A stretch of DNA of 64,000 nucleotides from Phycisphaeraceae bacterium (GTDB lineage: Bacteria; Planctomycetota; Phycisphaerae; Phycisphaerales; Phycisphaeraceae): NCBI GenBank assembly GCA_029260655.1, contig JAJDCU010000042.1, positions 1-64,000 on the forward strand, given 5' to 3'. The stretch's first letter is position 1. Every line of letters begins with the position of its first letter. Made by a program: the position numbers and the translations under genes. This document shows positions 31,031-53,053 of this stretch, in pieces. The notes under the pieces are model-generated. The model ran no database searches and was not told where the DNA came from. It worked only from the letters and a program-made list of their open reading frames with translations.

Positions 31031-31039
31031 TACTCGTAG

Positions 31040-33636: not shown

Positions 33637-34119
33637 CTACGCGGCTTCGTCGGCGCTGTCAGTTGATGTGGTCGGCTCGATCAAGTCGGCTATGTCGATC
33701 GGCTGGTAGAACCGGATTCCCAAATCGTAAGCGGGGGGGTCGGTTTCATTGATCGGTTGGCACCAGGCCACGACCCCGCCGGCAGGGAGGTTTTTGCCGG
33801 TATCCGATTCGATGATGACGGCGCAGATCGTTTCGGGTTTGATCAGCCCGCCGTGGATGATTCGGATACCCCCGGCGGAGATATCGGTGGAGCGGACCAG
33901 GTAAATCCCCGGCGCCGAGTCACCGCGATCGACCCGAAGCAGGCAGCGTTTGATAGCAGGGTATCGCGGTTGATCCGGGTCCCGCTGATCCTGACGCGGC
34001 TTTTTGTTTTTACGCTGTGACTTGGCGCTATTCAGCGCGGCCCGCCATTCATCCTCGCTGAGGGTCTGATTCAGCGTGTTGAGCGCACCGGTCGGGGAAG
34101 GCTTGTTTGGCTTAGTCAT
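33637..34119 (-). CDS. PilZ-domain protein with degenerate RxxxR
   Basis: A 160-residue protein with a PilZ fold from about residue 50: PRYPAIKRCLLRV, then STDISAGGIRIIHGG (the D/NxSxxG motif) and YDLGIRFYQPID. The first c-di-GMP motif RxxxR is not intact: before the Arg of PRYP the -4 position is Asp rather than Arg. It may bind c-di-GMP weakly or not at all. Its start ATG overlaps the stop of the upstream PilZ gene by four bases, so the two are translationally coupled and may act together. The proximity to pilus and exopolysaccharide genes fits c-di-GMP control of surface behaviour. Confidence 0.8.
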   Translation of the reverse strand: MTKPNKPSPTGALNTLNQTLSEDEWRAALNSAKSQRKNKKPRQDQRDPDQPRYPAIKRCLLRVDRGDSAPGIYLVRSTDISAGGIRIIHGGLIKPETICAVIIESDTGKNLPAGGVVAWCQPINETDPPAYDLGIRFYQPIDIADLIEPTTSTDSADEAA

Positions 34120-35800: not shown

Positions 35801-36180
35801 GGGCGAACCGTGGGGTGTTACCGGACAGGGCCATTGTGTCGCAAGGCTTCCCGGGGAGCAAACCGGTGGGCCAGCACGTGGGCTAAACGGGTTGTGACGA
35901 TTGATTTAACGGTTCCTGGGCCTGGGGGGTCAGGTCCGCCTTGCGTTAGACCGATGCTGGGTGAAGACTTGCCCGGCGAACCCCGCCTGGGGTGAGTCTG
36001 CCTCGCCCGGGCGGCGGCCCCGGGGCTCGGAACCGCTTGGGTGACCCAGGCAGCCGGCGGGTGCGTTGTGCTATGTTTTGCTTTAAGATAGGGGACTTGT
36101 TGAGGACACGTCCAGGAATCCATGGGTGGCCTAACCGGTGTCTACCAACCACCCTTTTGACCATGAGCCAGGAGCGAGCG
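35801..36180. other. divergent spacer before the exopolysaccharide locus
   Basis: This 380-base region separates gpsA from the Wza-like gene and must contain both promoters. I looked for a c-di-GMP (GEMM) riboswitch here and did not see one. A possible -10 is TATGTT near 36070, but no confident -35 was found. No gene was seen. AGGAG at 36170-36174 serves the GTG start at 36181. Confidence 0.4.
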
Positions 36181-37641
36181 GTGACGCAGAAGAACAACCG
36201 GAAGAAGTTGGGTCTGATCGGCATGCTGGCGTTGGCGGCAGTGTTGTTGGCGGTGCCGGTCGGATGTGAGACGGACTCGTGGCTGGACCCGTCGGTGGTC
36301 GGGCGGTGGGAGCACACGCCGATCACCATGCCGATCCTCGATCGCATCGACGTGATCGAAGACAAGGGCGCCCTCACCGTCACGGTCAGCGAGGTCACCC
36401 CCGAGGACCTGATGCCGGACTATCGTGAATACACGATCGGCCCCAGCGACGTGATCGCGGTGATCATTTTCGAGCTGGTCGACCCCGGCCAGGAAGCGAT
36501 CTACACGCGTCAGGTCGACGCGACTGGCCTGGTCCGCCTGCCTTTCGTTGGGGCGATCAAGGTTTCGGGCAAGACCCCTTCGCAGTTGGAAACGCACATC
36601 ATCGAGCTGCTTGAACGCCGTGATGTGATCCACAACGCGACCGTCAGCGTGGTTCTTCAGAACACGACCCAAAACACCTTCACCGTCAACGCCTCGCCTT
36701 TGACAGGCGGGACGGCCGGCGGCGTGTACCCGATCCCCCGGCCGGACTTTAGGCTGCTTGACGCCCTGGCTATGGCGCGCGGCGTGCCCGACCGGACAAA
36801 GCGTCTGCTGGTCATCCGTCAGTCGCCTTTGTCATCCGATGTCGCGGGGGTCGTCCCCGAGGGTGTCGGCAAGGAAGGTGACGAGCCGGTTAAGGCCGCT
36901 CCCCCGGCGCCGCAGGACCCGACCCAACTGATCGAAGAACTGCTGCAGGGCGTCGACGGCGGGTCCACCGACACGGGCCCCGCGCCCGGGACGCAAGACC
37001 CCGCCCAGCAGGCCCCGGCGGGGATCGAAGCCGGACTCGACAGCGCACATCCGCAGGCCCAGTGGGTCAATGTCGGCGGCGAATGGGTCCGCGTTGAGGC
37101 CGACCAGGCACAGCAACAGGCCCAGTCGACTCAGGAAAACCAGGCCAGGCTCAGCGCCATGGTGACCCAGCGCGTCATCGAGGTGCCTTATGAACGTCTC
37201 ACCGAAGGCGACATGCGGTACAACATCGTCATCCGCCCCGGCGACATCATTAAGGTGCCCGGCCAGGCCGGTGGCTTCGTCTATCTCGGCGGTGCGGTCA
37301 ACCGCCCGGGCGCGTACAACGTCCCCGGTGAGAAGGACCTGACACTCAAGCAACTGATCGTCTCCGGCGGCAACCTCTCGGCGATCGCCATCCCCGAGCG
37401 GGTCGACCTGATCCGCCGGATCGGTGCCGATCAGGAAGCGACCGTGCGGATCAACCTCCGCGCGATCTTCGACGGCACCGAGCCGGACCTGTTCCTCAAG
37501 GCCAACGATGTGATCAACGTCGGGACGAACATGGCGGCGACCCCGCTGGCGATCTTCCGCAACGGGCTGCGGGCGACGTACGGATTCGGGTTCGTCCTGG
37601 ACCGCAACTTCAACCTCGATGTTTTCGGAGCCGGACAATAA
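36181..37641 (+). CDS. polysaccharide export protein (Wza/SLBB type)
   Basis: A 486-residue outer-membrane polysaccharide export protein. After a signal sequence ending in AVPVGCET (lipoprotein-like, though the residue at -3 is Pro), a Poly_export domain runs from about 85 (YTIGPSDVIAVIIFE, TGLVRLPFVGAIKVSGKT), followed by SLBB domains (NTFTVNASPLTGGTAGGVYPIPRPDF and FVYLGGAVNRPGAYNVPG). A Pro/Gln-rich insert of about 115 residues (about 220-335: KAAPPAPQDPTQ ... QQQAQSTQENQA) separates the two SLBB segments and is not common. GTG at 36181 with AGGAG six bases upstream was preferred over ATG at 36163, which lacks a ribosome-binding site. First gene of the exopolysaccharide locus. Confidence 0.85.
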   Translation: MTQKNNRKKLGLIGMLALAAVLLAVPVGCETDSWLDPSVVGRWEHTPITMPILDRIDVIEDKGALTVTVSEVTPEDLMPDYREYTIGPSDVIAVIIFELVDPGQEAIYTRQVDATGLVRLPFVGAIKVSGKTPSQLETHIIELLERRDVIHNATVSVVLQNTTQNTFTVNASPLTGGTAGGVYPIPRPDFRLLDALAMARGVPDRTKRLLVIRQSPLSSDVAGVVPEGVGKEGDEPVKAAPPAPQDPTQLIEELLQGVDGGSTDTGPAPGTQDPAQQAPAGIEAGLDSAHPQAQWVNVGGEWVRVEADQAQQQAQSTQENQARLSAMVTQRVIEVPYERLTEGDMRYNIVIRPGDIIKVPGQAGGFVYLGGAVNRPGAYNVPGEKDLTLKQLIVSGGNLSAIAIPERVDLIRRIGADQEATVRINLRAIFDGTEPDLFLKANDVINVGTNMAATPLAIFRNGLRATYGFGFVLDRNFNLDVFGAGQ

Positions 37642-38012
37642 TCACACCGGGTGGTCCGACGCCTGGGGTCAAAATATCGGTTCGGCGGATTGGTGGGACG
37701 ATCACGGGGCCTGGACGTATCTGCGGCCTGGGTCATGGGTAAGCTGAGCCTTTTGATTTACACAAGGATGTGTCGGCCGATCAGGCCGGCCGGCCCCGCC
37801 TACAGTGCCTAGGGCGGACGACCGGCGTCAGGGAGCGCTATCGCTGCCGGGATCCGGTGTGATGGGGCCAATCCGGCGAACAGGTGCCCTGCGGCAGGCG
37901 TATAGCACCAAGGCGGATAGGCCGACCGGGTGCGGGGAGAATGGTTTTTCCAGCGTGCCCGACGGTACGGCGGGCGAGAACGAGTGATTTGATTAGAGGT
38001 GGCCCCAAGGGC
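37642..38012. other. spacer between wza-like gene and exosortase
   Basis: This 371-base spacer contains no supported gene. Several GC-rich short dyads are present (GGCCGGCCGGCC near 37785), but no terminator with a T-tract. Whether the exosortase gene has its own promoter cannot be told. AGAGGTGG near 37995 is the probable ribosome-binding site for the exosortase. Confidence 0.4.
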
Positions 38013-40064
38013 ATGACCAGCACCCCGGTAACGAACCTGACAACCGCAAGCGAGGCGAGGCCGTTGATCACCCCAAGGGGTTGGGTCTGGATCGGCCTGC
38101 TGTCGCTGCTGTTCGTCGCCCTGCACCGCAATTTCCTCTACCGCTCGCTGCTGATCGCGTTGGACGACAACAACTGGTCGCACGCGATGCTCATCCCGTT
38201 TATCAGCCTCTACTACCTGTACCAGAACCGGGCCAGACTGATGGACATCCGCAGCCGTGTCTGCTGGTGGGGGCTGCCGCTGGTCTTTGCCGGGATGGCG
38301 TCCTACGCGTTCTGGATCTTCCCCGGCCGCAACGACATGTTCCAGGGCTACAGCATGATCCTCGGTCTGTTTGGGCTGGTGCTGTTCCTGGTTGGGCCGA
38401 GGATGATGGCCGTGGCCTGGTTCCCGATCCTGTACCTGGGGTTTGGTGTGAAGGTCGCCCAGAAGCTTTGGGAGATCATCGCGCTGAAGCTCCAGACCAT
38501 CGCGGCGGCCAGCTCGACCATCATGCTGAACATCATCGGGCTGGTGATCGATATCGAGGCGAGCGTCCGTGGCAACACGATCGATCTGATCCATCGGGGT
38601 GTTCCGGTCAACCCACCGCTGAACGTTGCCGAGGCCTGCTCTGGGCTTCGGATGCTGATGGCGTTCCTGGCGCTGGGGGTGGCGATGGCGTTCCTGGCGC
38701 CCAGGCGATGGTGGCAGCGGGGGGTGATGGTCTTGATGACCTTGCCGATCGCCGTCGCCGTAAATGTTGGCCGGGTGACCACGCTGGGTGTGCTGCACAT
38801 CTACGCCCCCGAGTACGCTAAGGGCGAGTTCCACATCTTCATCGGGATGCTGATGCTGATCCCGGCCGCGGGCATGTTCCTGCTGCTGGGTTGGGTGCTT
38901 GACAAGATAATCATCGAAGACGAGGCCCCGCGTGGCGGGGGGGACACCCACCCGCGCCAGCCGTTGGCGCCGTTCGAGCCGACCGAGAACGACCCGTCGC
39001 TGCTGGTCAAAGGCGCGTTGATGGGAGCGGCTTTGACCGCCATGGTGTCCGCCTGCTACCTCCTGGTCATCATGCTGATCCGCCCCGACTTCTCGGTGCT
39101 TTGGATCGGGGGCACCGAAAGCCGCAACTTCGTGATCGCCGCCGTGGCCCTGGTCGCCTTGGTGCTGATCCTGGTCGTCGCCTTAGCGTGCCTGATCCCC
39201 AGGCACCGCCGGCTTCTGCCCGGCAGCCACCGGGCATTCGTCCTGGCGATCTGCTGCGGGCTGTTTACCACCGCGCTGGTCGCCCAGGAGGTGGTCCTGA
39301 GTGTCAACGGGGTCGTGGTCTTCAAAGAGGAACTGCCCGTACGCAAGACCCTTGAGCTGATCGAGCACCCCACAGGCACCTGGCGGTTCGTCCGTCAGGA
39401 CCCGCCTTTGGCCAAGGACATCATCGATGAACTGGGCACGGAGATGTATCTGAACCGCACGTACGAGGACACGGCTTGGACCGGCGGCCTCCGCGGGCGG
39501 ATCGCCGAGGTACATATCGCCTACTACACCGGCACGCCCGATACCGTGCCGCACGTCCCCCAGCAGTGCTTCAAGGCCGGCGGGCTCGTGCAGGTCGACG
39601 GCGGGGGTACCGTTCTAAACCTCCAGGGCGATAGCTACCGGCAGGATCCCAAGGTCCCCGGCGGTTACCTGCACCCCATGGAAGACCCGCGGTTCGGTCC
39701 GGACGTACGCATCCCGGGCCTGGAGATCCCCGCCACCTACTTCACCTTCGCCAATCCCGCCAACCGTCAAGAGGTGGTTAACGTCGCGTATTTCTTCGTC
39801 GCCAACGGCAAGTTCCTGCCCCGCCCAAGGGACGTGCGGCTCAAGGGCTTCGACCTCCGCGACAAGTACAGCTACTACTGCAAGATCCAGGTCACCGTCG
39901 GGGTCGAGGACAAGGAAGTCGCCAACGAGCGCATCGCGTCGCTTTTGTCGGAGTTGATGCCACAGATCATGTTATGTCTGCCTGATTGGGTCGATGTCAC
40001 CGAGGGCCGATGGCCCGCAGAGGTAACCGCCGGGGCGATAAGCCCGACGGGTGCCGGAGAGTAA
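38013..40064 (+). CDS. xrt: exosortase fused to an EpsI-type domain
   Basis: A 683-residue membrane protein. The first 290 residues form an exosortase (XrtA-like fold, about eight membrane helices) with the catalytic triad Cys209 (AEACSGLRML), Arg254 (NVGRVTTLGV) and His274 (GEFHIFIGM). Further helices follow to about 465, then a soluble domain (from about 480: FKEELPVRKTLELIEHPTGTW, WTGGLRGRIAEVHIAYYTGTPDTVPHVPQQCF) resembling the EpsI domain that in many bacteria is a separate protein. It would cleave PEP-CTERM tails at the membrane and transfer the proteins to the envelope. At least ten matching substrates are encoded in this window. ATG at 38013 was chosen from the start of the hydrophobic domain and the ribosome-binding site. 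Confidence 0.9.
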   Translation: MTSTPVTNLTTASEARPLITPRGWVWIGLLSLLFVALHRNFLYRSLLIALDDNNWSHAMLIPFISLYYLYQNRARLMDIRSRVCWWGLPLVFAGMASYAFWIFPGRNDMFQGYSMILGLFGLVLFLVGPRMMAVAWFPILYLGFGVKVAQKLWEIIALKLQTIAAASSTIMLNIIGLVIDIEASVRGNTIDLIHRGVPVNPPLNVAEACSGLRMLMAFLALGVAMAFLAPRRWWQRGVMVLMTLPIAVAVNVGRVTTLGVLHIYAPEYAKGEFHIFIGMLMLIPAAGMFLLLGWVLDKIIIEDEAPRGGGDTHPRQPLAPFEPTENDPSLLVKGALMGAALTAMVSACYLLVIMLIRPDFSVLWIGGTESRNFVIAAVALVALVLILVVALACLIPRHRRLLPGSHRAFVLAICCGLFTTALVAQEVVLSVNGVVVFKEELPVRKTLELIEHPTGTWRFVRQDPPLAKDIIDELGTEMYLNRTYEDTAWTGGLRGRIAEVHIAYYTGTPDTVPHVPQQCFKAGGLVQVDGGGTVLNLQGDSYRQDPKVPGGYLHPMEDPRFGPDVRIPGLEIPATYFTFANPANRQEVVNVAYFFVANGKFLPRPRDVRLKGFDLRDKYSYYCKIQVTVGVEDKEVANERIASLLSELMPQIMLCLPDWVDVTEGRWPAEVTAGAISPTGAGE

Positions 40065-40071
40065 GAAGCCA

Positions 40072-43000
40072 ATGGCCGGTCGAGTAAACACCAAGTTCGT
40101 CTTCATCCTCAGTTCGGTCCTGATCGTCCTGGTGCTGGGTTTCACCGCTTTGATGATCCGCAGCAGCCGAGACGCCCAGTCGCTGGTCGCCCGCGCCGAA
40201 CAGTACCAGGCCGAAGGCGAGATGGAACTTGCGGTCGAGACGTTCAAGCGCGCTGTCGGGCGCAGCAAGAGCGACACCCGGATCATCCAGAAGTACATCG
40301 ACGCCCTCAAGCAGATGCCGGCGGACGACCAGGTCGAGGCACGCAACACCCTCATGCTGGTCCGCAACTACACACGCAACCTCTGCCAGATCGACCCCGA
40401 CTCGCAGGCGTTCTTTCAGGCGTACATCGATTTGATCGAGCATTACATCGACCGCCTGGGCCAAGGCGGCACCGCGGGGCTGTCCCAGGCCATCTACGAG
40501 TTGTGCCAGACCCGGCTGGAGAACAACCCCCAGGACGAGACTGCCAGGCGTTACCGGGGGGCACACGGCTATCCACGGCTGACCGTGGATACACCGTCCG
40601 AGGAAGTTCAGCAGATCGGCGACGACCTGCAGTGGGCCCACGAACAGTTCCCCGAAGATGTGAAAGTGACGTACACCCTGGCGCGTTGGAAGCTCTTGGA
40701 GGCCGGCCGACAAGCCCGCCCCGGTGGGAACCCCGCCTTGGTTGATGGCTTGCGCGATCAAGCCAAGGCCCTGACCCAGGCGGCTCAACAAGCCGACCCG
40801 ACCAACCCCATGCGCAAGCTCGAACACTTCCAAATCATCTCCACCACCGACTTCGACCCCGAGGCCGAGGACCGGTATGCCATGATCAAGCCGAACCTCG
40901 ATGAACTGGAGAGCATGCTGCTGGCAGACCCCCAGCCCGAGACGGCGGTCCTCATCGTGGCGCAGTACCTCCGCAGTGTGTATTTTGCGCAGCTGATCGA
41001 TGAAGACCTGGACCCCATCGCCAAGGCTTCGGTGAAGAATAACCAGGGTACCCGCCGGGGGATTGAGTTGCTGACCGCCGCCGTCGAGGCCCACCCCGAC
41101 GCCATGACCATCCACCGGGTACTGGGCATGGAACTCAAGCGGGTCGGTGAATTCGAACTGGCGCGCGACCACATCGAGCAGGTACGCAAACTCAGCACAC
41201 GGGGCGAGTATGTCCAGGCCCTGCGCAACTACAATCTGCGTTTGAGCGCCTCGATCGAGGGGGCGGACCTGACCATGATCCTCGCCACCAAGCAAGTCGA
41301 GGATCCGGATCGCGAACGGATGTTCACCCAGGCCGGGGAGATCCTCGATGAGGTCAGCGTGGCGGGGCTGGGCGATACGCCGCGGGTGTTGATGCTCAAG
41401 GGCAAGCTCGCGCTGATCCAGAACAGGGTCCGCGAGGGACTGGTGAGCATCGACAAGGCCGCTGAACTGTACCCCGCGTTCAGCCAGGACAAAGCCGAAG
41501 CGCTATTGCTGTCTGCTCAGGCGCGCTCACAGCAGGGCGACTGGGGCGCTGCGGCCGAGCGATACGAGCAGTTGCTGGCGGTCAACCCCCAACTCATCTC
41601 GATCCGTATCTCGTTGGCGAGCATCTACCTGCGCGGCCAGCAGATGGAAAAGGCTCACGAGCACCTGGACTATGTGTTGACCGAGGATCCACACAACGAA
41701 CAGGGCCTGATCATCCAAGCCGCGCTGCTGGCCCAAGAGGACGACCTCGACCAGGCGATCAAAATCTATCAGCAGCTTGACCTGTCCGGCCGCCCGGATC
41801 TGGGGTTGGGCCTGGCCAAGCTACTGATCCTGAGCGATCGCAAGACCCCGGCCTTGCAGTTGCTGCGGGGGTATTTCGATGACGATCCGACCAACATCCA
41901 GGTGCTGTCGATGATGCTGGATCTGGCCGACACCGACGAGCGTAAGCGAAGCCTCATCCAGGCTTCCCGCGACGGCGGGGCGGACCCCGAGGTGCTGGAC
42001 CTGCTGACACAGCAGCTCGATCCCAGCCGGGTCATTGACCAGGCCCAGGCGATTCAGGACGTGCTCAATCGAGAGGAGGACCCGTTTCTCCGGGCGATCG
42101 GCGGGGCGAGGCTCTACACCCGGGCGGGGGAAGCGGAGAAAGCCCGCGAGTACCTGGCCGAGGCCGCCAAGCTCAAGCCCGACCACAAGGCCGTGGTCGA
42201 TTTGCAGTTCGACTTCGCCATGAAGGACAAGGACCTGGAACTGGCACAGAAGTTAGCCGACCGCGCCGCGGAGCTGAACCTCGACGAGGCGTCGGGTCGG
42301 TTCTACCTGGCGCAGATTTATGCGGTCAGGGAGGATTACACCCAGGCGATCAGCACCCTGCGCGAGGGGCTTGAGCAGATCCCGATCAACTCCTCGGGCT
42401 GGTCACTGTTGGGCGATATGCTCACCGCGGACAACAACTTTACCGAAGCGGTCAACGCCTACGAGACGGCGTTGGAGCAAAGGCCCAACGACCTGCGTGC
42501 GATGCGCGGCCTGGCGGCGCTGCGGGACCGCCAAGGCCGGCATGAAGAGGCCCTGCGGATGCTCAAGTCCGGGTACGACCAGTACCCCTCCAATTTCCGG
42601 CTGCGGGACCTGTATCTGGCGTACGAGGGGCGGTACGGCGACAAGCAGGCCGCCTTGAAGATGCGCAGGGCGGGTGCTCAGAAGGAGCCGGACAACACCG
42701 ACAACCTCCGTGCGCTGGCGCTATTGCTGGCGGAGTTGGAGCAGCCCGACGAAGCCCTGCAAACCATCCAGAAACTGATCGAAACCCAAGGCGCCTCGCC
42801 GGTCAACACCATCACCCTGGCACGGGTACATCAGATCGCCGGTGACGCGCAGCGGGGCGAGCAGGTCATCCGCCAATATATTCAGGACCAGGGGTCCCAG
42901 GCCACCCTCATCGACCACATCATGCTGGCGCGATACCTCCTCCAGATCGGCGATTTCCCCAATGCCCTCGCCGCCTACGAGCAGGCCGCCGAGCTCCAAA

Positions 43001-44619
43001 GCGAGCAGCGCGAGGTGACCCGTGAGCTGGCGAATCTGTATTTCAGCCGCGGCGCCTTCGACCGTGCCGAACCTTTGTACGACGAGCTGCACGCCCAATT
43101 CCCCGACGATGACAGGCTCGGGCTGAGGCTGGCCGATTCCCTGGTCAGGACCGGACAGTTCCAGGAGGCTTCGCAGGTCTTGTCCAGTCTCAAGAAACCT
43201 TCGGCGACCGCCGATGCCCTGCGGGCGCTGATCGCACAGGAAGGCGGGGATTTTGAAGAGGCGATGAGGCTGGTCAGTAACGCGATCGAAGCCGAGCCCG
43301 GCAAGGCGGTGCTCTACTTCGAGCGTGCCGTGATCTTGACCCGGGCCGGGGACAATAAAACCGATGCGATCCAGGACCTTAACACCTCGTTGAGTCTTGA
43401 CCCCGGCCACCTTTTGTCCCGGCGGTTGTTGATCGGTTTGCTCCTGGAGGAGGGCCAGCGCCGCGAGGCGGCGCGCGAGTTGAACACGGCGGTCATCCGG
43501 CACCCCGACTTCGCCGAGGGCCGGCTCAAGCTGATCCAGATGCGCGTCCAGGACGCCGACCTCTCCGCCGCGCGGGCCTTGGCTCAGGACGGGGTAGACC
43601 TCGCTCCCAAGGACCCGACCTGGCACAGCGTCCTCGCCGGGCTGGCGATCCAGACAGAGGATTTCCAGGACGCGATCAAGTCCTACCAGACCGTCATGGA
43701 GTTGGCGCCGACGCCGGCGAACCTGATGTCGCTGGCGTCATTCCAGCTCAAGCACGGCCGGGCCGGTGACGCCCTGACGCTGCTGCGCGACCACGCCGAG
43801 ATGGTCAACCAGCTCCCCCGTCTTCAGACCGTGATGGGCCGGGCGCTGCTGGCGACGGGGCAGTCCGAGCAGGGACACCAGGTCTTCGCCCGATCGATCG
43901 AGCGCTGTACGAGCCTGACCCAGTTGCTCGCGGTCGCCAGTCTTATCCGTGAGGACTACAGCCTTGAGCAGACCGTTTCGCTGTTTGAAGGCCTGGCCCA
44001 GCCGCCCTCCAGTGCTTGGGTGGGCTTGGTCTTGGCGCAGCTGCACCTTGAGGCCGACCTATCCGACGAGGCGGTTAGCCGTCTCTCGTCGGTGGACGCG
44101 ATGATCTCACCGCAGGACCCCCAGGCCCGTCAGGTGTTCGACCAGATCATGTCGTTGTCACTGCACCAGGCCGGCAGGCACGAGGAAGCGCTGGTGGTCT
44201 ACCAACGGATCCTCCTGGCCCAGCCGGACAACACCTCGATCCTGAATAACATGGCGTACATGCTGGCCGAGGACCTGGGTCGGCCCGATGAGGCCCTGCC
44301 GCTGGCCGAACGCGCCGTGGAGATCGAGCCGCAGAATGCACAGATCCTCGACACGCTGGGGTGGGTACAGTTCAAGGTTGGCCAGAGCGAGAAGGCCCAG
44401 GCCACGTTGAAAAACAGCATCGCCCTTGAGCCGCTGTCGGCCAACCATATGCACATGGCCGAGGTCCTGATCAGCCAAGGTTATAAGACGGAGGCGGGGC
44501 GTTATCTGAAGACGGCCATCGATCTCGCCGAGCAAAACAATGAGACGGACATGCTCAAGCGGGCAAGAGAACTGCTTGAGAGCATCGATCAACTGACGGA
44601 GGCTTCGGTAAGTCCATGA
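40072..44619 (+). CDS. giant TPR protein of the PEP-CTERM/EPS locus (PrsT-like)
   Basis: A 1515-residue protein with one N-terminal membrane helix (KFVFILSSVLIVLVLGFTALMI) and then TPR repeats over nearly the full length, e.g. YLAQIYAVREDYTQAISTLREGL, WSLLGDMLTADNNFTEAVNAYETAL and NNMAYMLAEDLGRPDEALPLAERAVEI. In other PEP-CTERM loci a large TPR lipoprotein or membrane protein (PrsT) accompanies the exosortase; this is the likely equivalent, with roughly three dozen repeats. It may scaffold assembly of the polysaccharide machinery. The ATG at 40072 lies just after the exosortase stop; a GTG at 40051 would overlap it. The 3' end overlaps the next gene by four bases. Confidence 0.85.
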   Translation: MAGRVNTKFVFILSSVLIVLVLGFTALMIRSSRDAQSLVARAEQYQAEGEMELAVETFKRAVGRSKSDTRIIQKYIDALKQMPADDQVEARNTLMLVRNYTRNLCQIDPDSQAFFQAYIDLIEHYIDRLGQGGTAGLSQAIYELCQTRLENNPQDETARRYRGAHGYPRLTVDTPSEEVQQIGDDLQWAHEQFPEDVKVTYTLARWKLLEAGRQARPGGNPALVDGLRDQAKALTQAAQQADPTNPMRKLEHFQIISTTDFDPEAEDRYAMIKPNLDELESMLLADPQPETAVLIVAQYLRSVYFAQLIDEDLDPIAKASVKNNQGTRRGIELLTAAVEAHPDAMTIHRVLGMELKRVGEFELARDHIEQVRKLSTRGEYVQALRNYNLRLSASIEGADLTMILATKQVEDPDRERMFTQAGEILDEVSVAGLGDTPRVLMLKGKLALIQNRVREGLVSIDKAAELYPAFSQDKAEALLLSAQARSQQGDWGAAAERYEQLLAVNPQLISIRISLASIYLRGQQMEKAHEHLDYVLTEDPHNEQGLIIQAALLAQEDDLDQAIKIYQQLDLSGRPDLGLGLAKLLILSDRKTPALQLLRGYFDDDPTNIQVLSMMLDLADTDERKRSLIQASRDGGADPEVLDLLTQQLDPSRVIDQAQAIQDVLNREEDPFLRAIGGARLYTRAGEAEKAREYLAEAAKLKPDHKAVVDLQFDFAMKDKDLELAQKLADRAAELNLDEASGRFYLAQIYAVREDYTQAISTLREGLEQIPINSSGWSLLGDMLTADNNFTEAVNAYETALEQRPNDLRAMRGLAALRDRQGRHEEALRMLKSGYDQYPSNFRLRDLYLAYEGRYGDKQAALKMRRAGAQKEPDNTDNLRALALLLAELEQPDEALQTIQKLIETQGASPVNTITLARVHQIAGDAQRGEQVIRQYIQDQGSQATLIDHIMLARYLLQIGDFPNALAAYEQAAELQSEQREVTRELANLYFSRGAFDRAEPLYDELHAQFPDDDRLGLRLADSLVRTGQFQEASQVLSSLKKPSATADALRALIAQEGGDFEEAMRLVSNAIEAEPGKAVLYFERAVILTRAGDNKTDAIQDLNTSLSLDPGHLLSRRLLIGLLLEEGQRREAARELNTAVIRHPDFAEGRLKLIQMRVQDADLSAARALAQDGVDLAPKDPTWHSVLAGLAIQTEDFQDAIKSYQTVMELAPTPANLMSLASFQLKHGRAGDALTLLRDHAEMVNQLPRLQTVMGRALLATGQSEQGHQVFARSIERCTSLTQLLAVASLIREDYSLEQTVSLFEGLAQPPSSAWVGLVLAQLHLEADLSDEAVSRLSSVDAMISPQDPQARQVFDQIMSLSLHQAGRHEEALVVYQRILLAQPDNTSILNNMAYMLAEDLGRPDEALPLAERAVEIEPQNAQILDTLGWVQFKVGQSEKAQATLKNSIALEPLSANHMHMAEVLISQGYKTEAGRYLKTAIDLAEQNNETDMLKRARELLESIDQLTEASVSP

Positions 44620-46877
44620 GTGCCAACCCCCTAATGCCTGCGTCCGCCGGTGGACAAGTCCCGGGAGCGCCCCCCATCCCGATCGGCCGGTTTAAGCCGA
44701 TCGATCCTTTGCGCGTGTTGCGTCAGCACGTCATGTTGTTATCGGTCGTTGCCGTTGTGGGCGTGATCACCGGGGTGGGTGTTTTCTTTGTGCTCAGCCG
44801 GACGGTCCCCAAATGGGCGTCTTCCGCGCAGCTGCGCCTGTCCGAGGGCGTCGCCGACCCCGAGAAGATGCGCACCGGCGATATCTTCACCGGCTCGCCG
44901 GCGTCGATGGAGGCGTACATCAAGAGTGAGGTCTACAAGATCCAGTCCGAGGTCGTGCTCCAGGAGGCGATCGGCAAGCCCCAGGTCCGTAACAGCGACT
45001 GGTACGCCGACTATCAAAAAGATGACGGCGCGTACGACTTCAACAAGGCCCGGGAGGATCTGGTTGACGACCACCTCAACGTCAGCATGATCCGCGGCAC
45101 ACAATTGATCAACGTCTCGGTCCACACCCCTTACAAAGAAGATTGCCAGAAAATCGTCGGCGCGATCGTGTCCGTGTACCTGCAACGCGCCAGGGGTGAG
45201 ACGACCAACCTGGTTGTCGGCCGGCGCTCCTCGCTACTCACCGAACGGAACCGGTTCGAGAACGACGTGACCCGTCTCACCAAGCAACTGGAAGACTACA
45301 CCCGTGACAACAACATGACGAACCTGGACAGTCGGCTTGAGGAAGCTGCCCTGGTCAGGCAATTAAAGATCAATGACCGGGAGGAGATGAACAAAGAGCT
45401 TTCGTCTCTCGATAAAGCCTATCAAGCCGCCCTTGCAAAACGCGACGCCGGGGGCCCTCCCGGTGCGGGGGATATCGCGGCCGCCTCGGAAGACCAGGCG
45501 ATCATGATCCGTGATGAACGGCTGATGTCGATGCGCGAGCAGCGCGAGGTTGCGCTGTACACCTTCGGCGAGAATCACCGGATGGTCCTGAACATCGACC
45601 GCAACATCGCCGCCACCGAGGCCGAGCGTGAGCGCGAGATCGAGCGGCTGCTGCGCGAGCGAGAAGAGGGCAACCTCACCGGCTACAAGCAGGCCGTCGA
45701 GAGCATTACCGAAGTGATCTCCGAACTCGACGGTGAGATCCTCGAGTTACGAGAGGAGCTGATCGACCTGAACCTTCACCAGACCAAGTACGCCGACTAC
45801 AAGAGCCAACTCGATCGTGCCCTGGAAGGCCGTCAGCGGATCGAAGAAGCACTCTCCGAGGTCCGCATGATCGAGAAACTTGAAGACGCGGTCCCTGTGA
45901 GGCTGCAGTCGTCCGCTTCCTTGCCGGAACTGGTGTTCCCCAAGATCGAGCTCGTCGTCCCCGGTGTCACGATGCTGATGCTGGCGCTGGCGACCCTGGC
46001 GGTCTTCCTGCGTGAGCTGATGGACCAGAGCATCAGGAGCCCGGCGGACATCAAGTTGCTCAAGGAGGCTGAGTTGTTGGGCACGCTGCCCGATGCCGAC
46101 GAAGACCCCTCCGGGCCCAGCTCGGTCGAGCGGGTGGTCGAGAAGTACCCCACGGGGTTGCTGGCCGAGTCTTACCGACAGGTCCGCACCGCGCTGTTGG
46201 GCAAGATGGATCGGCGCGGCTACAAGACGCTGCTGATCGGCTCGGCCCAGCCAGGGTCCGGTGTGTCTTCGGTCACGCACAACCTGGCGACGAGCTTGGC
46301 GTACAACGGCCGGAAGGTCGTGATCGTCGACGCCAACTTCCGCAGGCCCACCCAGCACCTGTTCGTCGATGCCGACAACGACCGCGGCCTGGTCGACTTA
46401 CTTTTGTATGACGCGGCCCTGGATGACATGTTGTTGACGGTCCAGGACCCGGACATCTCGGTCCTGCCGACCGGCCGGGCCGGCGACGCGCCCCCGGAGA
46501 TCCTTGAGGGTTCTGGGTTCCGTACACTCATGGCCGACCTTGAGACACGGTTCGACATCGTCCTGATCGACGCCCCCCCGGCCCTGCTCAGCTCCGAATG
46601 CCAACTCCTGGCCAAGCACGTCGACGCCATGGCCGTGATCGTCCGCGCCTCCAGCGACAAGCGGGGCATGGTCGATCGTATGTTCGGGCAGTTCGCTGGC
46701 CAACGCGCCGACCTGCTGGGCGTGATCCTCAACGGCGTGCAGTCCAGCGCCGGCGGGTATTTCCGCAAGAGCTTCAAGGACTTCTACCGTTACCGGGAGA
46801 ACGGCAACGCCGCCAACGGCCGTTCTCGCCGCGGCGTGCTCGCCGAGGCCGAATCCGATACGTTGGACGTCGAGTAA
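44616..46877 (+). CDS. Wzz/BY-kinase-like protein with degenerate P-loop
   Basis: A 753-residue polysaccharide chain-length determinant fused to a tyrosine kinase-like domain. Two membrane helices (about 38-60 and 447-465) enclose a coiled-coil periplasmic part (215-430), and the cytoplasmic domain starts near 515 (LLAESYRQVRTALL). The Walker A loop reads AQPGSGVSSV, with Val550 in place of the essential lysine; Walker A' is kept as VVIVDANFRRP and Walker B as FDIVLIDAPPALL. The C-terminal tyrosine cluster is reduced (GYFRKSFKDFYRYREN). It may have lost kinase activity and act only in chain-length control. It overlaps the TPR gene start-to-stop. Confidence 0.87.
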   Translation: MSANPLMPASAGGQVPGAPPIPIGRFKPIDPLRVLRQHVMLLSVVAVVGVITGVGVFFVLSRTVPKWASSAQLRLSEGVADPEKMRTGDIFTGSPASMEAYIKSEVYKIQSEVVLQEAIGKPQVRNSDWYADYQKDDGAYDFNKAREDLVDDHLNVSMIRGTQLINVSVHTPYKEDCQKIVGAIVSVYLQRARGETTNLVVGRRSSLLTERNRFENDVTRLTKQLEDYTRDNNMTNLDSRLEEAALVRQLKINDREEMNKELSSLDKAYQAALAKRDAGGPPGAGDIAAASEDQAIMIRDERLMSMREQREVALYTFGENHRMVLNIDRNIAATEAEREREIERLLREREEGNLTGYKQAVESITEVISELDGEILELREELIDLNLHQTKYADYKSQLDRALEGRQRIEEALSEVRMIEKLEDAVPVRLQSSASLPELVFPKIELVVPGVTMLMLALATLAVFLRELMDQSIRSPADIKLLKEAELLGTLPDADEDPSGPSSVERVVEKYPTGLLAESYRQVRTALLGKMDRRGYKTLLIGSAQPGSGVSSVTHNLATSLAYNGRKVVIVDANFRRPTQHLFVDADNDRGLVDLLLYDAALDDMLLTVQDPDISVLPTGRAGDAPPEILEGSGFRTLMADLETRFDIVLIDAPPALLSSECQLLAKHVDAMAVIVRASSDKRGMVDRMFGQFAGQRADLLGVILNGVQSSAGGYFRKSFKDFYRYRENGNAANGRSRRGVLAEAESDTLDVE

Positions 46878-46922: not shown

Positions 46923-47924
46923 GTGACGGGCAAGGCGATTATCACCGGCGGGGCGGGTTTTATCGGCTCGCACCTGGCCGCTGGGCTCAAGGCAGACGGT
47001 GTCAGCCTGGTCCTCGTCGACGATCTGTCCACGGGCAGCCGGGACAACATCAACGGCCTCTTGGACGATCGCTGCCTGTTTGTTCATGACAAGGCCGATC
47101 ACGCCTTGGCGGACCCCGCCCTGATGCGGGGGGTCGGCCAGGTTTACCACCTCGCCGCGTCCGTCGGCGTCCAGCGGGTCATCGATGACCCGCCCGCGAT
47201 GGTCCGCAACAACATCGACCAGACCGAGGCCGTCCTCGCCGCCGCACGCCGCGCCGGCGCGTCGGTCCTGATCGCCTCCTCCAGCGAGGTCTACGGCAAG
47301 TGCCCGGTCCTGCCCCTGCGCGAGGATATGGAGCTGGTCTACGGCCCGACGACCGCGTCCCGCTGGGCCTACGGCCTGACCAAGGCGCTGGACGAGCACC
47401 TGGCGATTGACATGCACCGCAGGCATGGCCTGCGCGTTGTCGTCACCCGGCTGTTTAATACCATCGGGCCCAGGCAGGTCGGGCACTACGGGATGGTCGT
47501 CCCCCGTTTCGTCGCCAAGGCGGTCGATAATGAAGTGATCGATGTCTACGGCGACGGCACACAGACGCGAGCCTTTTGCGATGTCAGGGACGTGACCCGT
47601 GCGATGGCCGAGTTGATCGCCAACCCCGACTGCTTTGGCCGGGTCTTTAACCTCGGTTCCGACCGGCGCGTCACTATCAACGAACTGGCGGACCGGGTGA
47701 TCAAGCTGGCCGGCTCCACCGCGGGCAAACGGCTGATCCCCTACGAGCAGGCGTTCGGCCCGGACTTCGAAGACCCCACGCACCGATTGCCCGACACCGC
47801 TCGCATTACCCAGGCCATCGGCTTCAAGCCCGAGATCGACCTGGACCAGACGCTTGCCGAACTGATCACGCTTCGGCGAGACCATCTCGCGGCCGCGGCG
47901 GCTCCGGCGGGGGGGGCGAACTGA
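46923..47924 (+). CDS. NAD-dependent sugar-nucleotide epimerase/dehydratase
   Basis: A 333-residue extended SDR enzyme. The NAD motif is GGAGFIGSHLAAGL, the catalytic site shows SSSEVYG with Tyr-x3-Lys in WAYGLTKALDE, and the substrate-binding loop is TRLFNTIGPRQVGHYGMVVPRF. It most resembles UDP-glucose 4-epimerase or UDP-glucuronate decarboxylase-like enzymes; the exact substrate is not certain. It would supply activated sugars for the exopolysaccharide. The start is GTG at 46923, and the stop overlaps the next ATG (TGATG). Confidence 0.85.
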   Translation: MTGKAIITGGAGFIGSHLAAGLKADGVSLVLVDDLSTGSRDNINGLLDDRCLFVHDKADHALADPALMRGVGQVYHLAASVGVQRVIDDPPAMVRNNIDQTEAVLAAARRAGASVLIASSSEVYGKCPVLPLREDMELVYGPTTASRWAYGLTKALDEHLAIDMHRRHGLRVVVTRLFNTIGPRQVGHYGMVVPRFVAKAVDNEVIDVYGDGTQTRAFCDVRDVTRAMAELIANPDCFGRVFNLGSDRRVTINELADRVIKLAGSTAGKRLIPYEQAFGPDFEDPTHRLPDTARITQAIGFKPEIDLDQTLAELITLRRDHLAAAAAPAGGAN

Positions 47925-49252
47925 TGGTCTCGCTGATCGCCCAGACGACCGATACTGCCGCTTTGGGGGCAGGCGCCTCGCAGGCCAGCGACGCCGCTGT
48001 TGCAGCCGCAGAACTGAGCCCCGGGCTGATGCAGACCCTCGCGCCGTACATGGGCGTGTTTTTCATCGCCTTCTTCGCCAGCATCATCGCGACCCCGCTG
48101 ATGCGGATGCTGGCGGTGCGCAACGGCATCGTGGACCTGCCCGACCTCAAACGCAAGAACCACATCGAACCGGTCGCCTACCTCGGCGGGGTTGCGATCT
48201 TTTTGGCCTGGCTGGCCGCCATCGCGTCGTCCTACTACGTGGTGATCCCCCAGCAGGCGTCGCTGTTGCCGCATATCCGAAACCCGCTGGTGAGTATTTT
48301 TCTCGGCGCCGCCGCGATCACCCTCACCGGGTTCTTCGACGACGTCTACGGGATCAGTCCCCGGGTCAAGATCGGTGGTCAGTTCTTCGCCGCAGCCGCG
48401 CTGGCGAACTACAACGTCGGCACCGAGCTGATCGATCACCTGTTCCTGCTAGTCGGGGTCGAGCCGATGCAGGGGGTCAGCTACATCCTGGGGACCGCCC
48501 TGATCGCGGTGATGGTCATCGGCGGCTGCAACGCGATGAACCTGCTGGACGGGCTGGACGGGCTGGCGTCGGGGGTCACCGTGATCGCCGGCGTCGGGTT
48601 CCTCTTGATCGCCGCCCATGTCGCGATGGAAACCGGGATCGATCCCGCCGTCGCGTTCAAGGACCCGATCCGGCTGGTGGTCTGCATGGCGTTGATCGGC
48701 GCGGTATTGGGCTTCCTCCCCTACAACTTCAACCCGGCGAGCATCTTCATGGGCGACGCCGGGTCCCTGCTGCTGGGTTACCTCTGTGTCGCCTCGATCC
48801 TGCTCTACGCCGACACCGGGGGCCTGAGCCTGAGGCTGGTCACCGCCGGGCTGATCGTCTTCGCCGTCCCCATCACCGACACGTCCCTGGCGATCTTCCG
48901 CCGGAAGATGCAGGGCAAGCCGATCCTCAGCCCCGACAGCCAGCACATCCACCACCTGCTGCGAAGGTCGGGCCTGAGTGTCAAACAGTCGGTCGTGACG
49001 ATCTACACCGCCGCCATCGTGTTCGCGGTCCTGGGGTACACGATGGTCGCCTTGGATCTGCGATGGCGCTACGTGCTGGCGGTATTCTTCGTGATCTACG
49101 GGTTCATCGTGGTCACGGCCTACAAGTACGGCCGGCAGTACGCCATCCTCCACCCCGCGGATGGCGATCAGGCCGACGAAATCGTCCTCCCCGAGGCGAT
49201 CAATGGGGAAGACGAGTCCGACGCGGCTGACGGTTCCCCCACGATGCCCTAG
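47924..49252 (+). CDS. polyprenyl-phosphate N-acetylhexosamine-1-phosphate transferase (WecA-like)
   Basis: A 442-residue multi-pass membrane enzyme of glycosyltransferase family 4 (MraY/WecA). Motifs: GFFDDVYGISPRVK (DDxxx), NAMNLLDGLDGLASGV, IFMGDAGSLLLGYL and HIHHLLRRSGLS. About ten membrane helices are visible. It starts polysaccharide assembly by moving a sugar-1-phosphate from a UDP-sugar to undecaprenyl phosphate. It is the last gene of the exopolysaccharide/exosortase unit. The C-terminal tail is acidic and disordered (DGDQADEIVLPEAINGEDESDAADG). Confidence 0.9.
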   Translation: MVSLIAQTTDTAALGAGASQASDAAVAAAELSPGLMQTLAPYMGVFFIAFFASIIATPLMRMLAVRNGIVDLPDLKRKNHIEPVAYLGGVAIFLAWLAAIASSYYVVIPQQASLLPHIRNPLVSIFLGAAAITLTGFFDDVYGISPRVKIGGQFFAAAALANYNVGTELIDHLFLLVGVEPMQGVSYILGTALIAVMVIGGCNAMNLLDGLDGLASGVTVIAGVGFLLIAAHVAMETGIDPAVAFKDPIRLVVCMALIGAVLGFLPYNFNPASIFMGDAGSLLLGYLCVASILLYADTGGLSLRLVTAGLIVFAVPITDTSLAIFRRKMQGKPILSPDSQHIHHLLRRSGLSVKQSVVTIYTAAIVFAVLGYTMVALDLRWRYVLAVFFVIYGFIVVTAYKYGRQYAILHPADGDQADEIVLPEAINGEDESDAADGSPTMP

Positions 49253-49922: not shown

Positions 49923-51170
49923 TCAATCGTCTAGCGGGTGATCGCTGATCGCCGGGCGTCTTCGTCGCGGAAACATCAGTGCCAGCCCGGCGGCGAAGCA
50001 GGCAAGGGTCGAGGGCTCGGGGATCGTGAACAGGTACGCGGCGCCGGTGGTCGTGGGCTCGCCCGGGGCACCGACGATTAGTGTCTGGCCGTCCAGGCCG
50101 ATCGACCACCCGAACTGATCGTCTTCCGAGGCGTCGGACGATCGGAACGATTCGAGCAGGTTGCCTGTATCGGGATCGAACATATGCACGATCCCCGAGG
50201 CGAGGATCTCATCCGAGAACCAGGTGCTGACCAGCATGGCATCGTTACTCAAGGCCACCGACTTGCCGAAAAATTGCCCGGAGCCAAGTTGTGGCCAGGG
50301 GATGGTGGTGAAAGTGGTATTGAGTGGATCGGTGATGTCATACAAGCGTACACCGTTTTCACCGGGGAGGATGTTGGCTGTCCCAAGCAACAGCCGATCG
50401 GCGCTGATTGCCAGGGAACTCCCGGCCGAGGCAAGCCCCGGTCCAGGGAAGTCTGCGACCGCAGAACCTGTCAGGGCGTCGAAGAGAGACACAGCACGGT
50501 CATTGTTTCCACTGGCGAAAACAGCCGCATAGTTCCCGTCTATCGCTACCGAGGATCCGAAAGAACCCAATATCTGGGGTGTGGCGGAAACAAGCTTTGC
50601 GATCTGATTTCCCGTTGTAAGATCAAGTAGATATGCGGTCCCAGCGTTTTCTATTCCTGATACATCAGTCGAGGGAGCGCCAACGATTGCTCTGTTCCCC
50701 ATGATTGCGATATCTGTGCCAAACGTGGTACTCGCGTCCACGTCCTCTGGCGTCCACTTCGCAACCTGATTGCCGTTGGTCAGATCGAATACCCATATGG
50801 CGGCGGTGCCGCTGGTGTCCCGGGCCCCACCGATGTAGGCGAGACCGTTGGAGATTGCTAACGCACCGCCGCCGAAACGGTCGCCGACGAAAACGTCATT
50901 GGGTGCGAATTTGAATAATTGGGTGCCAGTCGAGGCGTCGAACACATAGGCTGCCCCTCCTGCATCGCTCTTGGGGGAGCCCACAAGCGCCATGCCGCCA
51001 CCGATCGTAACGTTATTTCCAAAGAAAGAACCTACCTGTGGATCTTCGGGCACGAGCCTAAATGTTTCCGTGACAACAGCCCAAGTATGACTGTGAGCAG
51101 AAAGTATGACCACGACACAATACAGGCAAAGGCGGCATCCGGTTGACATCGTGAGATTCATGGGGCGCAT
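49923..51170 (-). CDS. FG-GAP/beta-propeller-like PEP-CTERM protein
   Basis: A 415-residue secreted protein with a repeat in which a GxxFGxxVxI segment is followed by AxVGAP-type strands: PQVGSFFGNNVTIGGGMALVGSP, DVFVGDRFGGGALAISNGLAYIG, STTFGTDIAIMGNRAIVGAP, LGSFGSSVAIDGNYAAVFA, DDQFGWSIGLDGQTLIVGAP. This suggests an integrin-like beta-propeller of about seven blades. The tail is a PEP-CTERM signal (IPEPSTLACFAAGLALMFPRRRR) with an extra eleven residues after the basic cluster. The start at 51170 has AGGAG eight bases upstream. It lies next to the dockerin-bearing glycosidase-like gene. Confidence 0.82.
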   Translation of the reverse strand: MRPMNLTMSTGCRLCLYCVVVILSAHSHTWAVVTETFRLVPEDPQVGSFFGNNVTIGGGMALVGSPKSDAGGAAYVFDASTGTQLFKFAPNDVFVGDRFGGGALAISNGLAYIGGARDTSGTAAIWVFDLTNGNQVAKWTPEDVDASTTFGTDIAIMGNRAIVGAPSTDVSGIENAGTAYLLDLTTGNQIAKLVSATPQILGSFGSSVAIDGNYAAVFASGNNDRAVSLFDALTGSAVADFPGPGLASAGSSLAISADRLLLGTANILPGENGVRLYDITDPLNTTFTTIPWPQLGSGQFFGKSVALSNDAMLVSTWFSDEILASGIVHMFDPDTGNLLESFRSSDASEDDQFGWSIGLDGQTLIVGAPGEPTTTGAAYLFTIPEPSTLACFAAGLALMFPRRRRPAISDHPLDD

Positions 51171-51241
51171 AGATCCGTCTCCTGGACGTTCGAGCGGACA
51201 ACTGTTTTCAATAATAGGGTATGACGTACATTCGTCGGGCA

Positions 51242-53053
51242 TCATTCATGATTCGGAAAATCCAATACAGCCCTTAGTTTGTGTGCATCTGCGATCGGTT
51301 GGTCCTGGTGGTTTAAGTGGCCCCAGCCGCCGTCCAGATCGACCTGTTTGTTGATGTAGTTGAATGCAACGTACAACGAGCCCCCGGCATCCTTGAAAGC
51401 CTGCATATTTTTGAAGTAGGCCTCGTACATCTCGGGCAATGCCTGTGCGTCTATGATGGCTTGTGAGTAAGGCTTGAGATTATTGTTCTGATCTTTCGGC
51501 GTCATGTGCTGGCCAGCCTCATAGGCCAAATAGTCGATGATCCGTCCCATCTCTACGGATAACTGCTGCGCTAGGGCACCATGCTCAATGTAACGGGCTT
51601 CAGACTTCTTTATTGTTCCAACGGGGTTAGTGTCACTCATGGCGTAATTGATCAACGCTACTCCGTCGCTAGTCGAACCAGTGTAGCCTTTGTCACTGAA
51701 ATACGCGGATGTGGATATCGCATCAAACTGCCTGTCAAAGCTAAGTACTTTCAATCTGTCGGTCATTTTCCCTGCCACCCATGCATTGTCACTGTCCTTT
51801 ATACTAGCTAATACACGGATGATCCGGTCCTCGTTACCGGTGAAAACCTGGTGCCATAATGAATAGTCATCCGCCGTATTATTGGCCCACATATCAAAGA
51901 ATTCCGGTGCGCCCAACTCCACATCGTTATTCGGTCCGGGGATAGCACCTTTCCGAATCCAATCATAAACGGGGAACCTTGAGTTCCACACTTCGTTCGA
52001 CCACTCGACATAGATTTTGGCGTTGGCGTGTAATGGGGGGATTCCATTGGCTGGGTCGCCGTCGCGCACCATCGTGGCGAAGCTGGTGATGTAAGCCGCA
52101 TCGGCTTTGTGCGGCATGCAGAACCAGGGGTCGGCCCGCAGCTCGTTGCAGAGCTCGATCATGTGTCCCAAGGCCACGCCTTTGCCGGTGGCTTGACTAA
52201 AATACGTCTTGGTCGCCCGGGTGTTCCACGCGACTTCGTCCTGAGTATTCGTTCTTTGCCAGTCCATGAACCGGATCGCCTTGAATGGGCGGAGCCGCTT
52301 GATGTAGAGCGGGTGGAATGCAGACGGTGAGTTCTCGTCAAACCCCGGCATCCAGAACCGGATGTTGCGGATGTGGTCATTCGGATCGATGCCGGCCAGG
52401 TGGATGAAGATGCCTTGACTGCCCGGTGTCACGGACACGATGTAAGTCTTCGGCTTGACAGGATCGGGTGTGACGGAATTCACATCGCCGGTGAAAGTCA
52501 CATTGGCGACGCCTTCGTAGGTAAAAACATAATCCCCTCCGGGGTACGCGCCGCCGACGTTGTTAAAGACGTGGGTGATGATTTCGGTCGCACCGGCGGG
52601 AACCTGCAATGGCCACCCATCGGCGTCCATACTCACGACCTTGTTTTGCGCGGGATCGAACGACGTAAGCCAAGGCCTACACATCTTCATCACGTCCACA
52701 AACACCCATTCCCGCCCCCAGTAGGCCACCTGGTGCAGGTTCATCCCCTTAAACGGCTGGAGTGTCTGGGTGCCGGCGTTCCAGTTGGGCAGGACGACGT
52801 TGAGGTCTTCGATCCCGACGTACCCGTCGCCGGAGGGGTCACCTTGCAGCAGGTCGCCGGGGGGTGTGACGGTTTGATTCCAGTTGCCAAGGACAATGTT
52901 GATGTCCTCAATCCCGACGAAGCCGTCATCGTTGAGGTCGCCGGGGATCAGCGGGAACTGGGCGAGTACGTTCGGGGCCAGGAACAGCCAGCCGATGCAC
53001 AGGCAAACCCACAGAGGTCTCAGCTTAGCGGGGGGGGGGGGCACACCATACAT
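51242..53053 (-). CDS. dockerin-bearing secreted glycoside hydrolase-like protein
   Basis: About 603 residues: signal peptide (ending near NVLAQFP), two dockerin-like calcium loops (GDLNDDGFVGIEDINIVL and GDPSGDGYVGIEDLNVVL), and a large C-terminal region with AKIYVEWSNEVWNSRFPVYDW, the pattern of a strand ending in Asn-Glu that carries the acid/base in clan GH-A glycosidases. It is likely an extracellular polysaccharide-acting enzyme or relative. Unlike the esterase at 1 kb, it has no PEP-CTERM tail; it ends in AVLDFPNHE. The start at 53053 follows GGAGG. Codons 5-8 are a run of twelve C on the coding strand (PPPP), a potential phase-variable or error-prone tract. The second half of the gene is more AT-rich than its neighbours. 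Confidence 0.78.
   Translation of the reverse strand: MYGVPPPPAKLRPLWVCLCIGWLFLAPNVLAQFPLIPGDLNDDGFVGIEDINIVLGNWNQTVTPPGDLLQGDPSGDGYVGIEDLNVVLPNWNAGTQTLQPFKGMNLHQVAYWGREWVFVDVMKMCRPWLTSFDPAQNKVVSMDADGWPLQVPAGATEIITHVFNNVGGAYPGGDYVFTYEGVANVTFTGDVNSVTPDPVKPKTYIVSVTPGSQGIFIHLAGIDPNDHIRNIRFWMPGFDENSPSAFHPLYIKRLRPFKAIRFMDWQRTNTQDEVAWNTRATKTYFSQATGKGVALGHMIELCNELRADPWFCMPHKADAAYITSFATMVRDGDPANGIPPLHANAKIYVEWSNEVWNSRFPVYDWIRKGAIPGPNNDVELGAPEFFDMWANNTADDYSLWHQVFTGNEDRIIRVLASIKDSDNAWVAGKMTDRLKVLSFDRQFDAISTSAYFSDKGYTGSTSDGVALINYAMSDTNPVGTIKKSEARYIEHGALAQQLSVEMGRIIDYLAYEAGQHMTPKDQNNNLKPYSQAIIDAQALPEMYEAYFKNMQAFKDAGGSLYVAFNYINKQVDLDGGWGHLNHQDQPIADAHKLRAVLDFPNHE
53030..53041. repeat. 12-base homopolymer inside a coding region
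   Basis: Twelve consecutive G on the plus strand (C on the coding strand) lie within codons 5-8 of the dockerin-bearing protein. A one-base slip would shift the frame just after the start and switch the protein off. Confidence 0.85.

Follow-up and report, generated by a model that had tools for sequence, protein, structure and literature searches.

The open reading frame at 44616-46877 of the window (the whole stretch of DNA analyzed, 64,000 nucleotides) raises the question of what a Wzc-type protein can do when the catalytic residues of its kinase domain are missing. In the accepted model, Wzc-type co-polymerases assemble and disassemble via cycles of tyrosine phosphorylation. An earlier note on this DNA pointed to a valine at the place of the P-loop lysine and proposed a pseudokinase that acts by shape alone. 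The reading we favor, with a probability of about 0.7, is that of a fused BY pseudokinase that holds a PCP octamer together without phosphorylation, as part of an exosortase-linked module. An order-wide loss of the lysine, a class-wide loss of a Walker A' aspartate and the retention of ring residues support and strengthen the earlier proposal.

A Wzc-type co-polymerase with a degenerate kinase domain

44616-46877 (+): fused PCP-2a (Wzc-type) with a degenerate BY-kinase domain, from domain searches, the structural model and structural alignment
44730-44804 (+): first transmembrane helix (TM1), residues 39-63, a helix in the model, placed as in Wzc
45945-46022 (+): second transmembrane helix (TM2), residues 444-469, a helix in the model, aligned to Wzc

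The reading frame is real and encodes a 753-aa product in which an N-terminal cytoplasmic stretch, TM1, a periplasmic coiled coil, TM2, a BY-like domain and a short tail follow one another. Two transmembrane helices thus enclose a large helical periplasmic domain and are followed, on one polypeptide, by a cytoplasmic BY-type domain. The NCBIfam model TIGR01007 (eps_fam, "polysaccharide biosynthesis tyrosine autokinase") matches residues 518-714 over its cut-off (1.1e-33), as does AAA_31 in Pfam, where the N-terminal Wzz match is weak. Sequence matches in the PDB comprise CapB, Wzc, BceF, VpsO and Etk, with CapB and Wzc at 1e-22 to 3e-27. The kinase-like domain is homologous to BY-kinases, and we conclude from these matches that the protein is a Wzc-type PCP-2a with a broken P-loop in its kinase domain.

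An AlphaFold2 model built from 43 orthologues (mean pLDDT 84.8, pTM 0.55) falls under a pLDDT of 50 only at residues 1-19 and 734-753. In this model the BY-kinase fold is predicted to be retained: the domain aligns to CapAB K55M (2ved) with Z 34.8 and 2.0 Å over 252 residues, and to 3la6, the Wzc domain, with Z 33.7. Full Wzc K540M is also among the best structural matches and aligns over residues 28-730; the whole-chain fit is loose (rmsd 7-21 Å), as expected for a flexible multi-domain protein. A counterpart to the D28-K701 ion pair of Wzc, involving the N- and C-terminal helices, was considered and rejected, as the offset from 28 to 17 leaves the conserved D30 off Wzc D28.

The Walker A lysine is absent throughout the order

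46245-46271 (+): degenerate Walker A loop AQPGSGVSS, with Val550 (GTG) at 46263-46265, from the sequence and orthologue comparison

The P-loop reads SAQPGSGVSSV, with Val550 standing at the Walker A lysine, so that the GK(S/T) of active BY-kinases is replaced by G-V-S. The GTG codon lies two substitutions from a Lys codon. The loss of the lysine is shared by related planctomycetes, in which the earlier note had proposed to look for the substitution. Among 56 distinct proteins of the same order, position 550 is Thr in 21, Val in 12, Ala in 12, Ser in 6, Cys in 4 and Gly in 1; among 60 further proteins of the order, from other genomes, it is Ala in 24, Thr in 23, Val in 6, Ser in 4, Gly in 2 and Ile in 1. 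A small residue or Ile is thus found every time, and Lys or Arg in none of the 116, from which we conclude that absence of the lysine is maintained across the order and does not stem from an error. Orthologues with GKT, which the earlier note would have taken as the mark of a sequencing error, do exist along with GRT in other orders, but the loss is fixed in this one.

The protein itself is widely retained, being present in 56 of 61 relatives searched and matched at full length in 187 of 201 genomes of an own-order sample, with an identity of only about 66% within the genus, a divergence at which synonymous sites would be saturated. One same-genus relative is a Planctomycetota MAG. A related-locus search of the genome contigs returned one locus only. 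Other parts of the pocket have changed along with the lysine in this order: the acidic P-loop residue (548) and Thr542 are lost, and the PPNPSE loop (621-627) is degraded. When columns that turned basic in the Lys-less order were sought as a replacement for the lysine, the surroundings of the P-loop held none. Position 545, where ParA-type loops might have their signature lysine, is Lys in just 2 of the 56 proteins.

Walker A' is also degenerate, while Walker B and ring-interface residues are kept

46167-46187 (+): E-x2-R-x2-R ring-interface motif (E518, R521, R524), kept, from orthologue conservation
46317-46349 (+): degenerate Walker A' VVIVDANFRRP, with Asn574 in place of the second Asp and Arg576 kept, from orthologue comparison
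46557-46580 (+): Walker B IVLIDAPP, Asp652 kept, in 56/56 and 60/60 own-order proteins

The earlier note had both remaining Walker motifs intact, which is right for the Walker B aspartate (LIDAPP, in agreement with hhhDx2P) but not for Walker A'. There, the DxDxR of active kinases reads D-A-N (VDANFRRP), a second lesion. All ingroup proteins read from the class (56 + 54 + 7, plus 60; about 177), also those that keep GKT, have the equivalent of Asn574, while the same position is Asp in 48 relatives, namely class paralogues and PCPs of other planctomycetes that were grouped as canonical by having DxD. In BY-kinases, phosphate and Mg are contacted by the Walker A Lys/Thr, both Walker A' aspartates and the Walker B aspartate; the second Walker A' aspartate touches the hydroxyl of the acceptor tyrosine and is probably the acid catalyst (PMC5260027).

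Several other positions are strongly conserved. Asn574, Gly549, Asp652, Glu518, Arg521, Tyr715 and Tyr726 are all invariant in the 116 own-order proteins; Ser/Thr at 551 is invariant in the order, and D572 invariant or nearly so. Within the ring-interface motif, E518 and R521 are found in 56/56 and R524 in 46/56, and the Walker A' arginine, R576, in 55/56. The EX2RX2R motif has a role in the octamer interface (PMC3795738), and together with the Walker A' arginine it stabilizes the kinase octamer (PMC3795738, PMC5260027). In one other family of the class (f9: L125, L128, L130, L143, L154), where the lysine was probably lost independently, Tyr takes the place of the octamer-stabilizing Arg576 (DANFYRP).

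The tyrosine-rich tail is reduced

46749-46811 (+): C-terminal GGYFRKSFKDFYRYR segment in place of the Tyr cluster, with a helix at 714-732 in the model, from conservation, Tyr counts and the model

The protein has 3 tyrosines after residue 706 instead of the Tyr-rich cluster of an active kinase. A reduced cluster had been noted from this one sequence, and it extends to the order, where the median is 3 (2-5), compared with 4 in the rest of the class and 7 in 47 canonical relatives. The tyrosines that are kept, Tyr715 and Tyr726, form a GY...Y motif that is invariant in the order, and a GGYF..Y tail is almost always shared by class orthologues outside it. The tails of canonical BY-kinases are unstructured. 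C-terminal helices, as predicted here, are also present in EcpK and HfsB (PMC12004946). Overall, three of the four sequence features of active BY-kinases fail, and the absence of the catalytic residues and the Tyr tail is conserved among orthologues, as in a pseudokinase.

Catalytic residues were lost in stages

Of 150 class genomes sampled, 147 contain orthologues or relatives. Class orthologues outside the order share the Walker A' Asn and vary at position 550, which is Lys in 38, Arg in 16 and lost in 7; the canonical relatives have Lys there in 47 of 48 cases and usually a Tyr-rich tail. With the motif columns removed from the alignment, trees (FastTree, 167 rows; IQ-TREE with a mixture model, 68 rows) place the own-order proteins in one clade with a support of 100. 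The fewest D-to-N changes are 1 (IQ-TREE) or 2 (FastTree), the extra one being a distant paralogue, and the fewest losses of the basic residue are 4 (in the order itself, in f9, in one f11 member and in one f13 member), or 3 if f9 is the sister group of the order, on which the trees are not decisive. The canonical outgroups suggest that these changes are losses and not gains. On this basis, the trees indicate that the catalytic aspartate was lost first, in the class ancestor, and that loss of the lysine followed, more than once, as would be expected of a domain that had already ceased to act as a kinase.

Several lineages combine GRT with DxN (L115 and L134 in f10; L086, L122 and L144 in f15; L150 and L157 in f24; L116 and L118 in f19), which we regard as an intermediate state. 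The distant paralogue, L173 (G067:C45), is the second PCP of an f13 genome and belongs to the canonical clade; it keeps GKS (SAESGEGKSLF) and reads VDANLRNP at Walker A', probably by an independent change. Outside the class, none of the phylum genomes sampled (149 and 392) scored higher than 350 bits in a search for members of the DxN family.

The gene belongs to a conserved exosortase-linked module

35992-37641 (+): OPX/Wza-like outer-membrane polysaccharide export protein, Poly_export and SLBB (PF02563, 3e-15), conserved neighbor
37884-40064 (+): exosortase, EpsH family, 726 aa (PF09721, 3e-48), conserved neighbor
40051-44619 (+): large PrsT-like TPR protein, 1522 aa (TIGR02917, 6e-91, just under cut-off), conserved neighbor
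46923-47924 (+): NAD-dependent sugar epimerase/dehydratase (PF01370, 1.5e-47), adjoining the PCP in most of the order
47924-49252 (+): WecA/MraY-type initiating sugar-phosphate transferase (PF00953, 1.4e-33), adjoining the PCP in most of the order

The TPR gene overlaps the PCP start by 4 bases, and the conserved Poly_export gene, the OPX/Wza-type partner expected near a PCP-2a, lies three genes upstream. The order OPX-exosortase-TPR-PCP recurs with near-constant spacing in about 60 loci, throughout the order and in most of the class. Some lineages (f17, f19) have no TPR gene between exosortase and PCP. The exosortase gene lies directly 5' of the PCP in L116, L118, L129, L138 and L148, with no TPR gene between. 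Nearly all canonical paralogues lack an adjoining exosortase, the exceptions being L174 and L187. Both of these keep GKT and DxD intact and sit on long branches, L174 having a Tyr-rich tail; they may be canonical relatives of the exosortase-linked PCP. Our search of the literature for exosortase together with tyrosine kinase and planctomycetes found nothing.

To call the locus otherwise complete, as had been done, overstates its content: the genes scanned in the window include no Wzx or Wzy, and the Wzy_C matches of the genome all lie outside the window, including one at 84.8 kb of the same contig. Elsewhere the genome encodes two LMW tyrosine phosphatases, neither on the PCP contig, and two further BY-kinase-like proteins with GKT, of which L002 (G000:C59) has a Tyr-rich tail and L003 (G000:C71) does not. 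A second exosortase (L304, G000:C44:6777-7598) is unlinked to the 753-aa PCP.

Within the window, an FG-GAP repeat protein with a PEP-CTERM-like C-terminus is encoded just downstream of the module at 49923-51245 (-), and is possibly a substrate. Genes for type II secretion/type IV pilus E and F proteins and a PilZ domain gene lie upstream of the module (28978-34119, -). Three DUF7901 proteins are encoded close together at 60275-61039, 61342-62094 and 62938-63747 (-), apparently through local duplication.

Comparison with known systems

BY pseudokinases as such are already known, and the closest parallels are EcpK and HfsB, judged by their descriptions. EcpK of Myxococcus xanthus has a BY-kinase fold without catalytic residues, works with a PCP-2, carries a C-terminal helix where active kinases have the Tyr tail and has a proposed scaffold role, but it is a stand-alone protein with EpsV as partner, retains no Walker motif and has a C-terminal region without Tyr (PMC12004946). 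The 753-aa PCP differs in that its domain is fused to the PCP and located in an exosortase operon, and in that its losses are selective (the lysine and the Walker A' aspartate), with G549, D652, R576 and two tyrosines kept. In HfsB/HfsA of Caulobacter crescentus, as summarized in PMC12004946, a catalytically dead BY domain is likewise needed by a PCP-2; HfsB is again stand-alone and belongs to another lineage and to the holdfast pathway. SMc01795, Mlr8439 and VV1_2305 (Cuthbertson et al., cited in PMC12004946) resemble the present protein, by description, in carrying PCP and pseudokinase on one polypeptide. They are proteobacterial, and PMC12004946 gives no stepwise history for them.

Wzc of E. 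coli shares the whole-length architecture, the kinase-domain fold and the Walker B aspartate, but has GK(S/T), DxD, a long Tyr tail and phosphorylation cycling; it is the laboratory mutant Wzc K540M that resembles the natural state described here. CapB1 of Staphylococcus aureus is a BY-kinase homologue that is inactive in vitro and was likened to a pseudokinase by its authors, but it keeps the catalytic lysine and binds ADP-Mg (PMC3795738). The XrtA-associated tyrosine autokinases of PEP-CTERM loci (TIGR03018) also tie an exosortase to a BY-kinase-type PCP system, but the 753-aa PCP scores far below the cut-off of that model (100.3 versus 230.65 bits). New here are the planctomycete lineage, the fusion combined with selective residue losses, the stepwise history of these losses and the setting in an exosortase operon.

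A ring without phosphorylation and its alternatives

Laboratory mutants indicate what loss of the lysine may bring about. Wzc K540M is unphosphorylated and forms a homogeneous octamer that was solved both apo and with ADP (PMC8285477), and together with Wza it yields a stable channel that contains ADP-Mg (PMC12881504). CapA1B2(K55M), likewise octameric, crystallized with ADP-Mg though no nucleotide had been added (PMC3795738), and in simulations of Wzc the lysine stabilizes an open state that is a poor binder of Mg-ATP (PMC8517177). By analogy, loss of the lysine is expected to stop phosphorylation and to favor the assembled ring. Since these K-to-M mutants bind ADP(-Mg), loss of the lysine need not stop nucleotide binding, and the earlier expectation of badly impaired ATP binding is not warranted (PMC3795738, PMC8285477, PMC12881504).

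On the reading we favor, the protein is a Wzc-like PCP-2a that acts as inner-membrane co-polymerase in an exopolysaccharide module linked to an exosortase. Its BY domain would no longer be able to phosphorylate tyrosine, the Walker A' aspartate having gone in the class ancestor and the P-loop lysine subsequently in the order, but would keep its fold, the residues that build the kinase octamer and a short tail in which two tyrosines are invariant. Most likely it would act as a constitutive scaffold of the ring and hold eight protomers and the OPX/Wza partner assembled, in the state of E. coli Wzc with a mutated lysine, so that the natural protein would approximate a fixed version of that mutant. 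Two considerations speak against a permanent scaffold. CPS production in E. coli is thought to need octamer-monomer cycling (PMC8285477, PMC11986026); a permanent ring must therefore work differently here, with another timer or terminator of polymerization, or the ring must cycle by another trigger. In addition, the two invariant tyrosines and the two LMW phosphatases leave phosphorylation of the tail by another kinase as a possibility.

The strongest alternative, which we consider possible but unlikely, is a nucleotide switch, in which ATP or ADP-Mg would still be bound despite the missing lysine, and the ring would assemble and disassemble through this binding or through slow hydrolysis rather than through tyrosine phosphorylation. 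The invariance or near-invariance of the phosphate- and Mg-site residues G549, S/T551, D572 and D652 is consistent with such a switch, as are the ADP-Mg bound by CapB K55M and Wzc K540M and the GKT or GRT kept alongside the Walker A' Asn in many orthologues of other orders. On the other hand, this order has also lost Thr542, the acidic residue of the P-loop and the PPNPSE loop, which looks like relaxation of the pocket, and the clade-specific columns hold no compensating conserved Lys or Arg.

It is improbable that the protein is instead a substrate, its Tyr715 and Tyr726 being phosphorylated in trans by an active BY-kinase encoded elsewhere (e.g. the GKT paralogue on contig C59), with control of the ring as the outcome. 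Although both tyrosines are invariant in the order and the genome has the Tyr-rich-tailed paralogue L002 and two phosphatases, the tail is predicted to be helical, phosphorylation of canonical tails comes from a neighbor in the same ring, and the GKT paralogue is distant (28% identity) and unlinked. An active but unorthodox kinase, in which another basic residue replaces the lysine and Asn574 is tolerated, would fit the intact fold and Walker B aspartate but is highly improbable given two lost catalytic positions, the lack of a new conserved basic residue in the order and a Lys545 present in only 2/56. Despite the rarity of Val at this place of the P-loop, a sequencing error or decaying pseudogene can be set aside, with 116/116 proteins without Lys, 187/201 full matches, other columns strongly conserved and a codon two bases from Lys.

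Implications

The fused pseudokinase we favor would turn exceptions already suggested by two systems, EcpK and HfsB, into a rule for an order and, by the Walker A' Asn, for a class, and it places this exception in a fused protein with a fixed operon. For annotators, the over-cut-off NCBIfam label "tyrosine autokinase" is probably functionally wrong for this group of PCPs. As orthologues carry K, R or neither with the same Asn throughout, the residue requirements for nucleotide binding, ring formation and export may be separable in this family. We tentatively propose, as a conjecture, that the class might run exosortase-linked export on a phosphorylation-free Wzc-type ring, in which the aspartate was lost first with the lysine kept (a nucleotide-dependent ring) and the lysine was then dropped independently in several lineages, giving permanent rings. 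If so, the class would constitute a natural series from active kinase through nucleotide switch to inert scaffold.
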